57,718 nucleotides of DNA from Fructilactobacillus sanfranciscensis DSM 20451 (GTDB taxonomy: Bacteria; Bacillota; Bacilli; Lactobacillales; Lactobacillaceae), in NCBI RefSeq assembly GCF_001436035.1, contig NZ_AYYM01000005.1, forward strand, positions 1-57,718, given 5' to 3'. Positions 15,908 through 40,663 of the stretch are shown piece by piece; the first letter of the stretch is position 1, and each line of letters opens with the position of its first letter. The translations under genes and the position numbers were made by a program. The notes below the pieces were generated by a model that saw only the letters and a program-made list of their open reading frames with translations, did not search any database and was not told the DNA's origin.

Positions 15908-16660
15908 TTATATCGTTGTTTTTTTATGACGTAAAAAGATTCCAATCGTAACAGGAATAGTTAAAATTACTCCAATTGAAGAAATTAAAGTCATGATAAA
16001 TTCCGAAATGAAAATTTTATCATTAATGATCATACCAAAACTATAATTCAGACGTGAAAACCAGATAAACAAGGCTAGTAACTCTCCGTAAAAACCAAAG
16101 AACAACGTATTAAACGCGGTTCCAATGATTTCTTTTCCAATTAATAACCCCTCACTACGCAATTTAGCTCTGGTAATCGTCGGATTATGCGCTTCAATTT
16201 CAAATAAACCAGTGGCAATGGCAATCGAGGCTTCTGCCACTGCTCCCAAGCAACTTAAAATCGTCATTGCACACGAAACATCAAGGAATTTAACACCCAG
16301 TTGGAGTGACAATCCTTCTAAGTCTTCGGTATTTTCAGGACCAAAACCTTGAACTTGCGCCCACTGTTCAATTGGAACAATTAGTAAAATTACTATTCCA
16401 ACCACAATCAAAGATGTGATGAAAGCAATATCCGCATTTCTCCCTTGTTGATTACCAAAGTAAATCGAAATCACCAAGATGATCACCGCGTTAATCAGCG
16501 TCACAATTAAATAGGGAAAACCGTACGAAATTAAAACCACTGAAATAAATACCAAACAGAAGTTAAAAATTAAGCCTAAAAAAGAAACGAACCCCTGTTT
16601 TCCACCAGCCAATAACATTGATCCAAATAAAATTAATACTAATAAAGTTATCGTTGTCAT
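15908..16660 (-). CDS. YibE/F family multi-spanning membrane protein (second subunit)
   Basis: Membrane protein of 250 aa with about seven hydrophobic segments. It carries the family features CAMTILSCLGAVAEASIAIATGLFEIEAHNP and an internal cytoplasmic stretch. YibE/F proteins are putative transporters of unknown substrate, normally encoded as adjacent pairs. The ATG at 16660 overlaps the upstream stop as ATGA, with AAGGTG upstream, so it is coupled to its partner. Function is unknown beyond family membership. Confidence 0.82.
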   Translation of the reverse strand: MTTITLLVLILFGSMLLAGGKQGFVSFLGLIFNFCLVFISVVLISYGFPYLIVTLINAVIILVISIYFGNQQGRNADIAFITSLIVVGIVILLIVPIEQWAQVQGFGPENTEDLEGLSLQLGVKFLDVSCAMTILSCLGAVAEASIAIATGLFEIEAHNPTITRAKLRSEGLLIGKEIIGTAFNTLFFGFYGELLALFIWFSRLNYSFGMIINDKIFISEFIMTLISSIGVILTIPVTIGIFLRHKKTTI

Positions 16661-17772
16661 TTGATCACCTTCGTTTTGCAAATTGCCCCAGCAATCAAGC
16701 CAGTAATTGGAACGGTTAATGCAATTCCAATCCCACTAATCAAACTTTGAACAATTCCTAATGACATAATCATGGAACAAGAATAACCCCAACTGTTTCC
16801 GTTTTTCAAAAAGAGTACCATCATGGGAAAAGTTCCAGCCACAAAAATTAAAAATAACACGTTAATCAAGGGTCCCATAATGGAACGTCCAATCTTACGA
16901 GCATCTTCAAATAGTTGCCAAAAAGTTAACGTTGGCTCCTCCCGATTAACCGCAAACAGACTTGAAGTAATGTCAGCTGATAAATCCATGATTGCCCCTA
17001 ATGAGCCAATCATACTTCCGGCAAAAAAGAGCGGTAACCGTTGCTGCGTCACGTAGTCCATCATTTCAAATTTCATGCCACGTTGATGGGTAACCGAAAG
17101 GACGAGATAAGCAATTAAAATTGCCGAAAACGTGCCTAGAATCGTGGCCGCAATTGCCACGACTGTTTCTTTAGATTTCCCAAAGATTAGTAAAGCCGTT
17201 ACCATCGTAAAAATAATTGAAAGAATTGCGAATAGGATAAACGGATTGAAATTTGTGTGGACATCCAGCTCAATAGCCACCATGAATAATAAGGCATTAA
17301 CGACCAAACTCAATAGTGCCATCGACCCGCGAAATTTAAGAATTATTAACAAGAATGTAATTGTCAACCAACTTAGAAAAATCACTGTTGTATCCCGCTT
17401 AAATCCAGTAATCATAATTGAGGATGCTTTTAATTTCTGACTCCCAAGATGAACGAAAATCTGTTGTCCTGGATGATATTCTTGATCAGTTGCAGTAGAC
17501 CCGCTAAATTGATTTTGGGCTTTGACTGTTTTTCCTGCATCTTTTCCATTCAAAATCTTCAATGTTAATTTTTGATTTTCTTGATAATCACGATTTTGAA
17601 ATTCATCGGTCGTATTCGTTTTTCCATAATTATGAACTTGTTCCACTTGAGCCACGGTTTGTTGGTACAAAGGGGCATCATAATGCGTAAACAAAATTGC
17701 AACTACGCCAACAATCAAAATAATTAAAATCGTGAGCCACTTAATCTGAACCTTCGGCCTAATTCTTGTCAA
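16657..17772 (-). CDS. YibE/F family membrane protein (first subunit)
   Basis: About 371 aa. One N-terminal membrane segment (WLTILIILIVGVVAILF), then a 110-residue external domain rich in Q/N/T (with YHPGQQIFVHLGSQ, OB-like), then seven further segments including the family stretch QRLPLFFAGSMIGSLGAIMDLSADITSSL. I choose the TTG at 17772 because GGGAG lies 8 nt upstream. An ATG at 17835 in the same frame would overlap rlmH by 23 bp and lacks a ribosome binding site. Substrate unknown. Confidence 0.8.
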   Translation of the reverse strand: MTRIRPKVQIKWLTILIILIVGVVAILFTHYDAPLYQQTVAQVEQVHNYGKTNTTDEFQNRDYQENQKLTLKILNGKDAGKTVKAQNQFSGSTATDQEYHPGQQIFVHLGSQKLKASSIMITGFKRDTTVIFLSWLTITFLLIILKFRGSMALLSLVVNALLFMVAIELDVHTNFNPFILFAILSIIFTMVTALLIFGKSKETVVAIAATILGTFSAILIAYLVLSVTHQRGMKFEMMDYVTQQRLPLFFAGSMIGSLGAIMDLSADITSSLFAVNREEPTLTFWQLFEDARKIGRSIMGPLINVLFLIFVAGTFPMMVLFLKNGNSWGYSCSMIMSLGIVQSLISGIGIALTVPITGLIAGAICKTKVIK

Positions 17773-17812
17773 AATTACATCTCCCAAAAACTTTTTACCT
17801 CTAAGTTTAGCA

Positions 17813-18292
17813 TTATTTATGATAAGGGCTTCCATTATTAATCATAAATGCACGATAAATTTGTTCACAAAATACTAATCGCATCAATTGGTGAGGCAAA
17901 GTAAAACAGCCAAATGAAATTGTATCATTTGCTCGTTTCATTACTGCATCCGAAAGACCAAGTGATCCACCAATCACAAATGTAATGTCAGAATGGCCAT
18001 AGGTCGTTAAATCTTTAATTTTAGCGGCGAATTCTTCGGAGCTAAATTGCTTACCTAAAATTGCTAACGCAAACACAAATTCTTTATCACCAATTTTACT
18101 GAGAATCCGTTCTCCTTCTTTTTGTTTTACCTCATCCATTTCAGCTTCACTTAAAGACTCAGGTGCTTTTTCATCAGAAACTTGCACAATTTTAAATTTA
18201 CAAAAACGAGAAAGTCGTTTTTCATATTCCGAAATTCCATCACGAAAATATTTTTCTTTAACTTTTCCCACTACTACTAATTTGATGTTCAT
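17813..18292 (-). CDS. rlmH: 23S rRNA pseudouridine-1915 N3-methyltransferase RlmH
   Basis: SPOUT-family methyltransferase of 159 aa, the standard length. It methylates the pseudouridine at position 1915 in helix 69 of 23S rRNA on assembled 70S ribosomes. Diagnostic segments are [13 protein letters not shown] at the start, [11 protein letters not shown] (the SAM-binding knot) near residue 105-115, and the C-terminal [18 protein letters not shown]...SPYHK. It is the usual companion of walJ/htrA in lactobacilli, but here htrA is missing from the gap upstream. Confidence 0.97.
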
Positions 18293-18901
18293 AACTCGAC
18301 TCCTTTTAACAGTTTATCCACAAAGTTATCCACAAAAATCACAATCAAATGCTTCTTTTTGTGGATTTATCCCCAACGCTTTTTTCTCACTTGTTGTCAA
18401 TTTATTTTTTATTTCACACCTTTTTCCACAGCAACATATGTTCGTTAACACAAAATTAATTGGCTAAAACGCTTGTTATTAAAGCATTTAAAAAATATTT
18501 TGAATGTTTCTCAAAGTTATCCACACACGTTATGGATAACCATCCGAATTTTATTAACTGCTAACAAATCCTTAAGTGACAAGCTTTAACGTATCCACGG
18601 ATAGTTGTACACAGGTTTATCCACAACTTATTGACTGTGCTTTTTTTGGTTGTTTATTTTTCTTAATTATCAATTTTAAATGTTATCATTCGTTCGTAAT
18701 TAAAAAAATAGGCTAACAGAATGTTACTAAAACTTTTTCGATTTTTCCGCTTCCTTTTATCATTATAGCTGACTTTTTACTTTAATTTTTTCATTTTAAC
18801 AAAATCCACATTTCGTTAGGTTGTATCATACTAATTTTATAATATCCGTTTCAGCAACTTATTCACAAAAAAAGTGCGATTATCAGTTGGATAATCACAC
18901 T
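18293..18901. other. Gene-free walJ-rlmH gap with a DnaA-box cluster
   Basis: 609 bp without a supported ORF. It holds four perfect TTATCCACA boxes in the same orientation, at 18314, 18326, 18517 and 18617. Near matches are TTATCCCCA (18367), TTTTCCACA (18422), TTATCCATA on the minus strand (18531-18539) and TTATTCACA (18859). The sequence between and after them is very A/T rich. In related lactobacilli this gap usually carries htrA. I find no HtrA remnant. A subsidiary origin element or a DnaA-titrating cluster are both possible. Confidence 0.75.
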
Positions 18902-18903
18902 TT
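18867..18903 (-). terminator. Intrinsic terminator of the walRK operon (after walJ)
   Basis: AAAGTG-GATTATC/GATAATC-CACTTT hairpin overlapping the walJ stop codon, followed by a T run on the minus strand. Confidence 0.75.
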
Positions 18904-19705
18904 AAAGCGTATATAAATCTGAAGGTTTTTCTACATCAGTTCCGTGTAGTTGAAAACTTTTTCCAACACCTAAACCATTATTTTTCATCATTGAAGCCAC
19001 AGTCAAACGTTGTAATTCCTTAGTATTGTTATGATGACTACGGTGGGCTAAGAAAATATGCTTTGTTTTGGGACCCATAACATCCATTAAAACTTCTGTT
19101 CCTTCGACATTTGATAAATGCCCTGTATCACTTTGAATTCGAAGCTTCGTATAATATGAATAATCACCATTCATCAACATATCAGTATCATAATTACATT
19201 CAAACAAATAGCCATCCGCATCGCGAATGATACCGGCAACATTATCAGAAATTGTTCCAGTATCAGTCACAATTACAAAACTCTTACCATTGTGATGATA
19301 ATTATAGAATTGTGCCTGAGCAGCATCATGGGAAACGGCAAAACTTTCCACATCTAAATCATCAAAAGATTCCGTTTTATTGGGATCAAAAATGTATTTT
19401 TGTTCAACTGGAATTTTTCCAATTTTGGAGTTCATGGCATTCCAGGTTGGTTCATTAGCATAAACATTCATTCCATATTTACGAGCTAAAATACCCACTC
19501 CCTTGGCATGATCCGTATGCTCATGGGTTACAAACATTGAATCAACATCTTTTAAATCTTTGCCGATTGATTTCATCATTCGCTCAATTCGAATTCCAGA
19601 TAACCCTGCATCTTGAATAATTTTATGCTTTGGAGTTTCAATATAGGTACAATTTCCGCCACTTCCACTTGATAAGACGCAAATTTTAAAATCATCATTA
19701 TTCAT
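18902..19705 (-). CDS. walJ: MBL-fold metallohydrolase WalJ (YycJ)
   Basis: Cytoplasmic metallo-beta-lactamase-fold protein of 267 aa, the last gene of walRKHIJ. The metal-binding motif HEHTDH is at about residue 61-66. Other ligands are SHDAAQ, TDTGTIS and LAHRSHHN. The start region ICVLSSGSGGNCTYIET is typical. YycJ is linked to cell division/wall homeostasis and has 5'-3' exonuclease activity in some reports; its precise role here is unproven. It overlaps yycI by 8 bp. Confidence 0.93.
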   Translation of the reverse strand: MNNDDFKICVLSSGSGGNCTYIETPKHKIIQDAGLSGIRIERMMKSIGKDLKDVDSMFVTHEHTDHAKGVGILARKYGMNVYANEPTWNAMNSKIGKIPVEQKYIFDPNKTESFDDLDVESFAVSHDAAQAQFYNYHHNGKSFVIVTDTGTISDNVAGIIRDADGYLFECNYDTDMLMNGDYSYYTKLRIQSDTGHLSNVEGTEVLMDVMGPKTKHIFLAHRSHHNNTKELQRLTVASMMKNNGLGVGKSFQLHGTDVEKPSDLYTL

Positions 19706-23733: not shown

Positions 23734-24444
23734 TTATTTTTCTTCAGCACTACGAACGTAATAACCAACACCACGACGTGTGACAAGCCATTTAGGTTGA
23801 CTTGGATCATCTTCAATTTTTTCTCGTAAACGACGAACCGTCACATCAACCGTCCGAACATCACCAAAAAAATCGTAACCCCAAACGGTTTGAAGAAGGT
23901 GTTCACGAGTCATAACTTGTCCGGCATGTTGTGCTAAATAATGAATTAATTCAAATTCACGGTGAGTTAAATCAACGGTTTTCCCGTTCTTAGTAACTGA
24001 GTATGAATCGGGATGCACAGTTAAATCACCAAATGTAATTTCCCGCTTTTCATCGTCTTCTTTGCTACTATTTTCACTGGCAACTGACTGACGTCGTAAA
24101 TTAGCTTTTACTCGGGCAACCAGTTCCCGGTTAGAAAAAGGTTTAGTAACATAGTCATCGGCACCGATTTCTAGTCCTAACACTTTATCTAATTCAGAGT
24201 CTTTGGCAGTTACCATGATAATCGGCATATTATGCGTTTTTCTAACTTCCTTTGCAACTTCTAAACCATCAATTTTAGGAAGCATGATATCTAAAATTAT
24301 TAAATCAGGTGTATTTTCCTCAACTTTTTTTAAGGCATCTTCACCATCATAAGCAACTTCAACTTCGTATCCTTCTTTTTCTAAACTAAATTTTTCAATA
24401 TCGGTAATTGTTTTTTCATCATCTACAACTAAAATTTTAGACAT
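23734..24444 (-). CDS. walR: Response regulator WalR (YycF/VicR)
   Basis: OmpR-family response regulator of 236 aa. The receiver domain has acidic DD at 8-9, phospho-acceptor Asp52 in LDIMLPK, and the conserved lysine in [11 protein letters not shown]. The C-terminal winged helix ends [17 protein letters not shown]...[27 protein letters not shown], typical WalR. It regulates cell-wall hydrolase genes and is usually essential. First gene of the walRKHIJ operon; the promoter would lie in 24445-24640. Confidence 0.97.
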
Positions 24445-37323: not shown

Positions 37324-38463
37324 TTAAAAGGTCCGAACCGGGGTGATTAATTGAATAAATTCATGATCATTTTCGGTTGGAGTAATTGTAAATGGACGAA
37401 GAGCAGACGTAAATGCCACTTCAACATCAATTTTACCAAATACTCGAAGTGCTTCTTTCATATAATCTGGGTTAAATGAAATTTCAAGGTCTTCTCCGCT
37501 AATTTCCTTTGGTTGGAGATCTTCTTCAACTTTACCAACATCAGGAGAGTTACCAGTAATGGTCACTACTTTATCATTTGGCTTAATCGTTAATTTAATT
37601 ACATTATTCCGTGATTCATGAGACAACAATGAGGCACGTTCAACAGCTGCTAATAAATCTGGAGCTGAGAACTGAATCTTAGTTGCGGATGAATCTGGAA
37701 TTAAGCGTGAAGTATCTGGGTACATTCCTTCAAGTAACCGTGAGTAAAAACGAGTTGCTCCAAAATTAAACATAACTTGGTTTTCCGATAAATCCATTTT
37801 GATTTGTTCTTTTTCACTATCAAGCATGTGAGAAAGTTCTTTCAAACTGTCACCAGGAATCACAATGTTATAAGCACCGTCACTTTCAGCAGGTAAACTA
37901 ACTTTCCGTTGACTTAACCGATGACTATCAGTTGCGACAGCTAATAATTGATTTTGGTCTAGGGTGAAGTGCACCCCAGTTAAAATTGGACGATTTTCTT
38001 GTTTAGATACAGCAATTACAGTTTGACCAATTACTTCTTTAAAAATTTCAGCAGGTAAGTCAATTGAATTATCGGTGCTGATTTCTGGAAGATGAGGATA
38101 ACCATTTGCATCTAACCCATTAATGGTAAATTCAGAGTTTCCTGACTTAATGTTGGTTTGAAAATTATCGCCAACTTCAACAACTAACTCTGTGTCAGGT
38201 AATTTTTTTACAATTTCACTGAAAAAACGAGCGGGTAAAACAATGCTTCCAGTTGAACTAATTTTTAAATCGTTATCTGGATTATCACCACTAATTGTGG
38301 TTTGAATTGAAATATCTGCATTACTTCCAGTTAACATAATGTTGTTTCCAGTGACGTCTAGTTTTAAACCAGTCAAAATTGGAATAGTTGTTTTAGAAGA
38401 GATTGCTCTTTGGACAATATTTAACGCTTTAATGAATGAAGCACGATTGATTGAAAATTTCAT
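37324..38463 (-). CDS. dnaN: DNA polymerase III sliding clamp (beta subunit)
   Basis: 379 aa. Three clamp domains with the usual N-terminus (MKFSINRASFIKALNIVQRAI-like), TIPILTGLKLDV, NRPILTGVHF and the ending FIQLITPVRTF. The dimeric ring holds the polymerase on DNA. It follows dnaA across 212 bp that carry origin elements. Confidence 0.97.
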   Translation of the reverse strand: MKFSINRASFIKALNIVQRAISSKTTIPILTGLKLDVTGNNIMLTGSNADISIQTTISGDNPDNDLKISSTGSIVLPARFFSEIVKKLPDTELVVEVGDNFQTNIKSGNSEFTINGLDANGYPHLPEISTDNSIDLPAEIFKEVIGQTVIAVSKQENRPILTGVHFTLDQNQLLAVATDSHRLSQRKVSLPAESDGAYNIVIPGDSLKELSHMLDSEKEQIKMDLSENQVMFNFGATRFYSRLLEGMYPDTSRLIPDSSATKIQFSAPDLLAAVERASLLSHESRNNVIKLTIKPNDKVVTITGNSPDVGKVEEDLQPKEISGEDLEISFNPDYMKEALRVFGKIDVEVAFTSALRPFTITPTENDHEFIQLITPVRTF

Positions 38464-38675
38464 TTTTTAGGATTCTCCTTAGCGTGTTTTTAGTTTACTT
38501 AATTAATAAAAGAATAAAAGCAGTAGTAGTAGGTGCTGTTAATTATGGGGAAAACTAAGCTAAACGTAGCTACCCGTTAGTCCACACTTTGTGGATAAAG
38601 TTGTTGATAAAAACTAGTATTTCAGAAAGTTATCCACAATTCAAATTATACCATTTTTGAGATTATTCAGATTTA
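38464..38675. other. oriC, dnaA-dnaN part: DnaA boxes and candidate unwinding element
   Basis: Two perfect DnaA boxes: TTATCCACA at 38630-38638 and its complement at 38590-38598. About 57 bp further toward dnaN there is TAGTAGTAG (38524-38532) followed by an A/T-rich run. In gene orientation this reads box, then CTACTACTA, then T/A-rich DNA, which resembles the DnaA-trio and unwinding element of Bacillus subtilis. The distance between box and trio is larger than in Bacillus, so the assignment is tentative. Confidence 0.7.
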
Positions 38676-40025: not shown

Positions 40026-40528
40026 TGAAGTTACTCCTCCTATGTTAAAGCGATAAAAATATTTTAGCATTTTATGACGGAAATAAAAAAGTTTTCCACA
40101 ACATAAAACACATTGTGGATATATGTTTCACATCTAAGGTATAAGTTTTCCACAAACTTGTTAACAACTAATAAAAAGAAGTTGCTTTTTGACTAATTAA
40201 CAAGCACGTGTGGATAACTAAACGTTGCTATAAAAGGAACTATTACACATTTATTGAATTGTACACAGCTTGTGGATAAAAATGAATAACTGTTGTGATT
40301 TTGTGCAAAGATTCGTGCAAAGCATGTGATTTACCTGCCTAGTTATCCACACTAATTCACAGGTAAACTTTATGAAACTTTTTTTATATCCACAGAACGT
40401 TAGGTTAACTAATTATGGAACTTTTCAAATTTGTCCTTTGCTAGTTTCGCGGTTTGTGCTATTATTTAAAAGAAGCACTATTGGATAAAAAATCGTTTAA
40501 ACGAAATCGAATATAAGGAGGGCTCGTA
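40026..40528. other. oriC, rpmH-dnaA part: DnaA-box array
   Basis: 503-bp gap. Perfect boxes are at 40209-40217 and 40271-40279 (minus orientation) and 40343-40351 (plus). One-mismatch boxes are TTTTCCACA at 40092-40100 and 40146-40154, TGTGGATAT at 40114-40122, and ATATCCACA at 40386-40394. A TATTAT at 40460-40465 could be the rpmH -10. No ORF is supported. Confidence 0.85.
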
Positions 40529-40663
40529 ATGAAGAGAACTTACCAACCAAAGAAACGTCATCGTAACCGTGTTCATGGTTTCCGTGCACGTATGCAAACT
40601 AAAGGTGGACGTAAAGTATTAGCTCGTCGCCGTCAAAAAGGTAGAAAAGTATTATCTGCATAG
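40529..40663 (+). CDS. rpmH: 50S ribosomal protein L34
   Basis: 44 aa, very basic: [18 protein letters not shown] and a tail RVLARRR-like ([19 protein letters not shown]). ATG at 40529 follows AAGGAGGG. First gene rightward of the origin, ahead of rnpA as is nearly universal. Confidence 0.97.

Follow-up and report, generated by a model that had tools for sequence, protein, structure and literature searches.

The closest described counterpart of the locus studied here, the gap between walJ and rlmH of Fructilactobacillus sanfranciscensis, is the yydA cluster of Bacillus subtilis, which Okumura and co-workers reportedly counted in 2012 as one of six clusters. In the available text of PMC4447404, the eight regions of B. 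subtilis with the strongest DnaA binding are the ones easily detected in vivo, and binding region 8, upstream of yydA, belongs to them. It has seven sites and in vitro Kd values of 0.16 µM (ATP) and 0.33 µM (ADP), and DnaA appears to repress yyzF-yydD (PMC4447404, in part). In the excerpt of PMC8203912, yyzF-yydABCD is one of eight directly regulated sets. Removal of six clusters outside oriC resulted in early initiation (excerpts of PMC5295017 and PMC13220808), an effect that was strong only with all six gone and was partly relieved by one cluster restored at various places (excerpt of PMC5295017). The earlier note on this DNA knew of nothing similar between walJ and rlmH, which overlooks that rlmH is yydA in B. 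subtilis and that a strong DnaA-binding region lies upstream of it there.

Escherichia coli datA is likewise a non-coding DnaA-box locus outside oriC that limits initiation. It differs in working through DnaA-ATP hydrolysis, with the involvement of IHF. B. subtilis is described as lacking both IHF and datA, as well as Hda and SeqA, in the available part of PMC13220808.

The window analyzed here is the whole 57,718-nucleotide stretch of DNA from F. sanfranciscensis DSM 20451. Its RlmH was found to match B. subtilis YydA in the PDB (1to0, E 1.7e-58) and also S. aureus RlmH (species taken from the SAV/SA locus tag). The window locus and the B. subtilis yydA cluster thus share their position upstream of rlmH (yydA) and the presence of several DnaA boxes. 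They differ in that B. subtilis has an ORF in the gap, presumably yyzF from its position, and further clusters elsewhere, whereas in the five Fructilactobacillus genomes of one or two contigs examined oriC is accompanied by a single cluster, which has seven slots at fixed spacing, and the window carries a LexA-like dyad. In genome G316, the RlmH of which equals YydA at 151 of 159 positions, the gap contains a 56-codon ORF with boxes inside it and around it. We consider it probable, at roughly 0.7, that the cluster in the walJ-rlmH gap is orthologous to that upstream of yydA in B. subtilis and acts as a DnaA sink limiting re-initiation.

In the window rlmH (17813..18292, - strand) encodes a 23S rRNA methyltransferase, and walJ (18902..19705, - strand), encoding a protein with a metallo-beta-lactamase fold, was named from its position after the YycF/WalR gene (23734-24444). 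The gap between them contains four perfect DnaA boxes (TTATCCACA), all on the + strand, starting at 18314, 18326, 18517, and 18617, and one-mismatch boxes at 18367(+), 18422(+), 18531(-), and 18859(+). The four exact boxes in one orientation and the several one-mismatch boxes of the earlier note were therefore recovered at the same coordinates. Its description of the DNA as A/T-rich also holds, with 29% G+C in the gap against 34-36% in the flanks. The same is true of the likeness in box density to oriC, which lies in two gaps around dnaA: the dnaN-dnaA gap (38464..38675) has two perfect boxes together with DnaA-trios (TAGTAGTAG) at 38524, and the dnaA-rpmH gap (40071..40529; rpmH named from position and from its sequence by eye) has three.

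These four and five boxes account for all nine perfect boxes of the window, where shuffled sequences gave an expectation of 0.68. The genome (1.23 Mb, 68 contigs) was found to have 15 perfect boxes in total, four in the walJ-rlmH gap, five in oriC and six elsewhere, the last being singles on other contigs. For at least four boxes in 609 bp, the Poisson probability is about 3e-12 if the rate is taken from the six background boxes, and about 1e-10 if it is taken from all 15. The gap is thus an intergenic region outside oriC with several DnaA boxes beyond chance expectation, and from its sequence it is assigned to a known kind of locus, the DnaA-box cluster outside oriC of the B. subtilis type.

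Box density like that of oriC and an A/T-rich gap are also compatible with a remote, alternative or former replication origin, and the earlier note had proposed a remote origin element or the relic of an origin move. The cumulative GC skew, determined within the window, has its minimum at 37919, beside dnaN-dnaA. The skew is alike on the two sides of the walJ-rlmH gap (-0.116 to the left and -0.103 to the right), with no change at 18.3 kb, and is +0.117 beyond dnaA. The DnaA-trio motif consists of TA[GA] repeats, and among the three gaps scanned a run of at least three repeats was found only in the dnaN-dnaA gap, at 38524; no such unwinding element lies beside the boxes of the walJ-rlmH gap. 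The gap therefore resembles the bipartite oriC of Bacillota (dnaA-dnaN and rpmH-dnaA gaps) in box sequence and similar density, but differs from it in having neither DnaA-trios nor a skew turn. On this evidence the origin and the origin relic were both rejected. The cluster also coexists with oriC in the five genus genomes examined, and we regard an origin of any of these types as highly improbable.

Conservation was first of all evident within the genus. rlmH was found in nine of the ten Fructilactobacillus genomes searched, source genome included, and the cluster was kept in all nine, each with four or five perfect boxes upstream of rlmH. Seven slots, scored with at most two mismatches and at positions within about 2 bp, are common to the nine: -30, -42, -128, -233, -247 (inverted), -321, and -333 from the rlmH start. 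Slot -30 (18314..18322, + strand) is perfect in eight of the nine genomes and has one mismatch in the other, while slot -42 (18326..18334, + strand), at a distance of 12 bp, is perfect in all nine. Slot -233 (18517..18525, + strand) has zero to two mismatches across the nine. It is followed at 14 bp by the inverted slot -247 (18531..18539, - strand), which is perfect in seven genomes and has one mismatch in two, the window (TTATCCATA) included. Slot -333 (18617..18625, + strand), perfect in the window, has one mismatch in the eight other genomes.

Slots -128 (18412..18420, + strand; TTTCACACC) and -321 (18605..18613, + strand; TTGTACACA) deviate by more than two and by two nucleotides in the window, respectively, and are perfect in the eight other genomes. 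Judged by its slots, the window copy of the cluster is slightly decayed relative to its congeners. Adjoining the decayed -128 slot is the one-mismatch box TTTTCCACA (18422..18430, + strand) at -138; several other genera also have a box at -138 to -141. The one-mismatch box TTATCCCCA (18367..18375, + strand) is located outside the conserved slots, and the other eight genus genomes have no box with at most one mismatch at this offset.

In the alignment of the nine clusters, pairwise identity was 93.9% for the 54 box columns and 56.6% for the 285 other columns, a contrast that somewhat favours the boxes, since the perfect boxes of three sequences out of the nine were used to define the box columns. 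In five genus genomes of one or two contigs and 1.4-1.5 Mb (G001, G002, G005, G006, and G008), groups of at least three perfect boxes were found only at oriC and upstream of rlmH, 22-23 kb apart. Of the checks that the earlier note had proposed, the one in close relatives thus speaks for the feature, and the GC skew speaks against an origin role. Single boxes do occur across this A/T-rich genome, but the shuffle controls and the conserved spacing led us to reject chance or simple A/T-rich repeats, the probability of which is negligible.

The conservation was found to extend beyond the genus to other Bacilli. In 154 distinct genomes (loci L009-L162) the 450 bp upstream of rlmH contained 408 perfect boxes in 69.3 kb, compared to a mean of 1.2 in dinucleotide shuffles of the same segments and to 40 in the remaining 464.5 kb of these loci. 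At least one perfect box was present in 127 loci, at least two in 109, at least three in 79, and at least four in 57, while 27 had none. The 154 loci are a non-random set of best-scoring matches and hand-chosen loci, mostly one per genus or family, in which close relatives are over-represented and most families outside Lactobacillaceae contribute one to three genomes. Among 80 named loci, which are the best 80 of at least 500, overlap the unnamed set and by their titles come almost entirely from Lactobacillaceae, 68 had at least two perfect boxes within 600 bp, six had one, and six had none; the latter were five Lacticaseibacillus and Secundilactobacillus similis.

Some of the loci scored as empty have several one-mismatch boxes (five each in L044 and L045, nine in L146, four each in L058 and L124), and in L130 two perfect boxes lie beyond the 450 bp, at -815 and -719. 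No perfect box was found in the 450 bp in families f7, f9, f11, f12, f18, f23, f27, f34, f38, and f39, each represented by one to three genomes. Genome G157 (6.8 Mb) lacks perfect boxes in the 450 bp preceding rlmH; at C1:1144235-1144482, far from dnaA, it has at least three perfect boxes within 250 bp, among the matches listed. The cluster thus occupies the orthologous position, upstream of yydA/rlmH, and is conserved in relatives. In the open-licence literature searched we found no report of an rlmH/htrA DnaA-box cluster outside Bacillus or of its conservation; what is new here is the breadth of that conservation and the LexA-like dyad at fixed spacing.

The neighbouring genes bear on whether the region might serve the wal operon or htrA instead. 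A frequent layout among relatives is walJ-htrA-cluster-rlmH, as in F. fructivorans (L199). A co-oriented htrA upstream together with at least two boxes in 600 bp was observed in 71 of 162 loci, and walJ took the place of htrA in 14 of the 162. A further 23 loci with at least two boxes had neither htrA nor walJ in the flank, many of these flanks being only 1.5 kb long. The htrA protease domain was not found in eight of the ten genus genomes, the source genome among them, and was kept in F. fructivorans (G004) and G009. Given this frequent layout and the source genome in which htrA was not found, the walJ-rlmH gap is most simply explained as a product of htrA loss.

Several observations would fit a regulatory region of the wal operon or htrA: walJ is the neighbour in the window, and 12 of 162 loci have htrA and rlmH in divergent orientation, so that the two genes could share the region (at least one perfect box lies between them in 11). 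In ten of 18 genomes in which rlmH had moved, the cluster also remained beside htrA, as described below. However, the cluster lies 3' of walJ or of co-oriented htrA, an intrinsic-terminator-like hairpin (18871..18903, - strand; one found against 0.3 in shuffles) closes walJ, and the cluster persists in genus genomes where htrA was not found. Regulation of the wal operon was rejected on the grounds of htrA loss, the 3' position and the terminator, and we hold any such role for wal or htrA to be very improbable. The earlier note had also raised a DnaA reservoir near the wal operon. The reservoir, based on predicted binding, is the best supported of its options; the link to wal looks like a by-product of htrA loss.

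As the terminator-like hairpin closes walJ, rlmH probably needs its own promoter. A rival reading is that the cluster is chiefly an operator through which DnaA would repress rlmH and its downstream genes or set the timing of their expression, with storage being incidental. Across the genus, the pair of boxes at -30 and -42 keeps a fixed place directly upstream of the ribosome-binding site; in the window the likely site, AAAAGGAG (18300..18307, - strand), is 6 bp from the nearest box. The apparent repression of yyzF-yydD in B. subtilis agrees with such a role. A candidate -35 element of the rlmH promoter, TTGACA, is located at 18395..18400 (- strand). It is absent from the six promoter-like sites of the promoter scan, which gave no good -10 for TTGACA (18400-18395) in the window, and this counts against an operator. 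In several other genera TGTAGT or TATTGT, read by eye, was found 17 bp downstream of TTGACA. TTGACA showed no clear enrichment upstream of rlmH (41 compared to a shuffle mean of 31.9, with a standard deviation of 5.0 and a largest value of 46).

On the - strand, 15908-18292 is occupied by rlmH and two YibE/F-like genes with overlapping ends. This suggests a single transcript, which DnaA bound to the cluster would also affect.

A dyad, CGAACNNNNGTT, was found 26 times in the 154 upstream segments, invariably on the rlmH strand, compared to 1.05 in shuffles. The next box was 23-24 bp from the dyad in 21 of the 26, and TTGACA was 44 bp from it in 14 of the 16 that had one downstream, a regularity which also favours the operator. 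In the 80 named loci (the best 80 of at least 500; our own count) the dyad was located at -134 to -187 in 43. The window copy, CGAACATATGTT (18433..18444, - strand), is separated from TTGACA by 44 bp and from the decayed -128 slot by 24 bp; of the boxes actually present, that at 18422-18430 is closest, at 14 bp. A second dyad, at about -87 from the rlmH start, was seen between TTGACA and the start in several genera, and reads CGAACTAGTGTTCA in Lactiplantibacillus plantarum (L282).

The four central bases of the first dyad vary, as in a dimer operator, and we take CGAACNNNNGTT to resemble the LexA/DinR box. The LexA (DinR) operator consensus is the palindrome CGAACNNNNGTTCG. CGAACATATGTTGC, the first half of this palindrome with GTT, is present, while the window has no stretch that matches the full palindrome with at most one mismatch. 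A CGAACAAACGTTC site is located upstream of recA in the source genome. Genome-wide, the 12-base dyad had 25 sites compared to 22 for the reversed control; being hardly commoner than the control, it is notable only for its place upstream of rlmH. A 204-aa gene next to a CGAACAATTGTTC site (L166) gave no NCBIfam match at 1e-20, and a LexA regulon is therefore not established. Putative LexA control of rlmH is a lead.

Evidence against the operator also comes from 18 genomes in which rlmH is not the gene next to htrA but lies about 2 kb away or more, in some cases in a different part of the genome. In these, 700 bp behind htrA were scanned, and the cluster was found to have stayed 3' of htrA in ten: all five genomes of genus g12 (G020, G057, G087, G113, and G137), with near-identical spacing, all three of family f44 (G305, G326, and G426), and G066 and G423. 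Eight (G030, G096, G044, G196, G264, G157, G342, and G193) had no perfect box in the 700 bp; the last five come from families in which the genomes examined likewise lack boxes at rlmH. The rlmH side of this count covers the 18 except G113, G137, G066, G096, G326, and G426. For G326 and G426 the htrA copy next to walJ was used and not the best-scoring copy. The G087 flank showed no walJ, and of the three perfect boxes in G305 one or more fall inside the neighbouring ORF. G272, with htrA without walJ beside it and no boxes behind, was excluded from the 18. In G018, G203, and G350 rlmH lies beside htrA, yet no perfect box was found.

In G423 the boxes lie between the 3' ends of htrA and a convergent TrkA-type gene, with rlmH about 2.3 kb away behind two genes. 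On one strand of this gap there are open frames of 60 and 48 codons, and no frame exceeds 110 codons, so that the cluster faces no gene start of that size. Boxes, geometry and position were conserved, and the cluster was able to persist when either neighbour had been lost or moved. An rlmH operator alone does not explain a cluster that stays by htrA after separation from rlmH, whereas a putative DnaA reservoir would. We consider it unlikely that the cluster is chiefly an operator. G423 also has a further group of three perfect boxes (L203:3288-3504), about 28 kb from dnaA and upstream of an oligopeptide-type ABC transporter gene.

The distance to dnaA was assessed in 61 of 62 genomes, with G403 left out. 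The median rlmH-dnaA distance was 34 kb, with distances across a record end being rough since some record lengths were rounded and those of G388 and G357 assumed. At least two perfect boxes were present in 28 of 41 genomes with rlmH within 60 kb of dnaA and in nine of 20 beyond 60 kb. The number of boxes drops as the distance grows (Spearman -0.42, confounded by kinship), a trend that fits an origin-proximal role without proving it. Against a sink, G092 keeps an array of seven perfect boxes 315 kb from dnaA, which speaks for an operator. The 27 of 154 loci with none in the 450 bp scanned and the eight of 18 genomes with none behind htrA also count against a sink.

For the preferred reading, a DnaA sink orthologous to the yydA cluster, the mechanism would be as follows. 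DnaA is predicted to bind the seven-slot array which, being about 20 kb from oriC, would be copied soon after initiation. Early copying would double a high-affinity DnaA sink and lower free DnaA, which would help prevent early re-initiation. In genomes with the array upstream of rlmH, this gene is probably repressed by bound DnaA as well, because boxes are located beside TTGACA and next to the ribosome-binding site.

More tentatively, and with some doubt, the array may represent an ancestral initiation-control locus of much of Bacilli, under selection as an independent cis element, which in many Lactobacillaceae was joined to a LexA-type operator at a constant spacing. If so, its geometry would have been kept while either neighbour was lost or replaced, and DNA damage could be sensed at a locus that stores DnaA. 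The six outside clusters of B. subtilis mask each other in deletion studies (excerpt of PMC5295017). Since the five Fructilactobacillus genomes have one cluster besides oriC, a single deletion could test the titration model directly, and the cases in which rlmH has moved or htrA has been lost help to separate DnaA storage from gene control.
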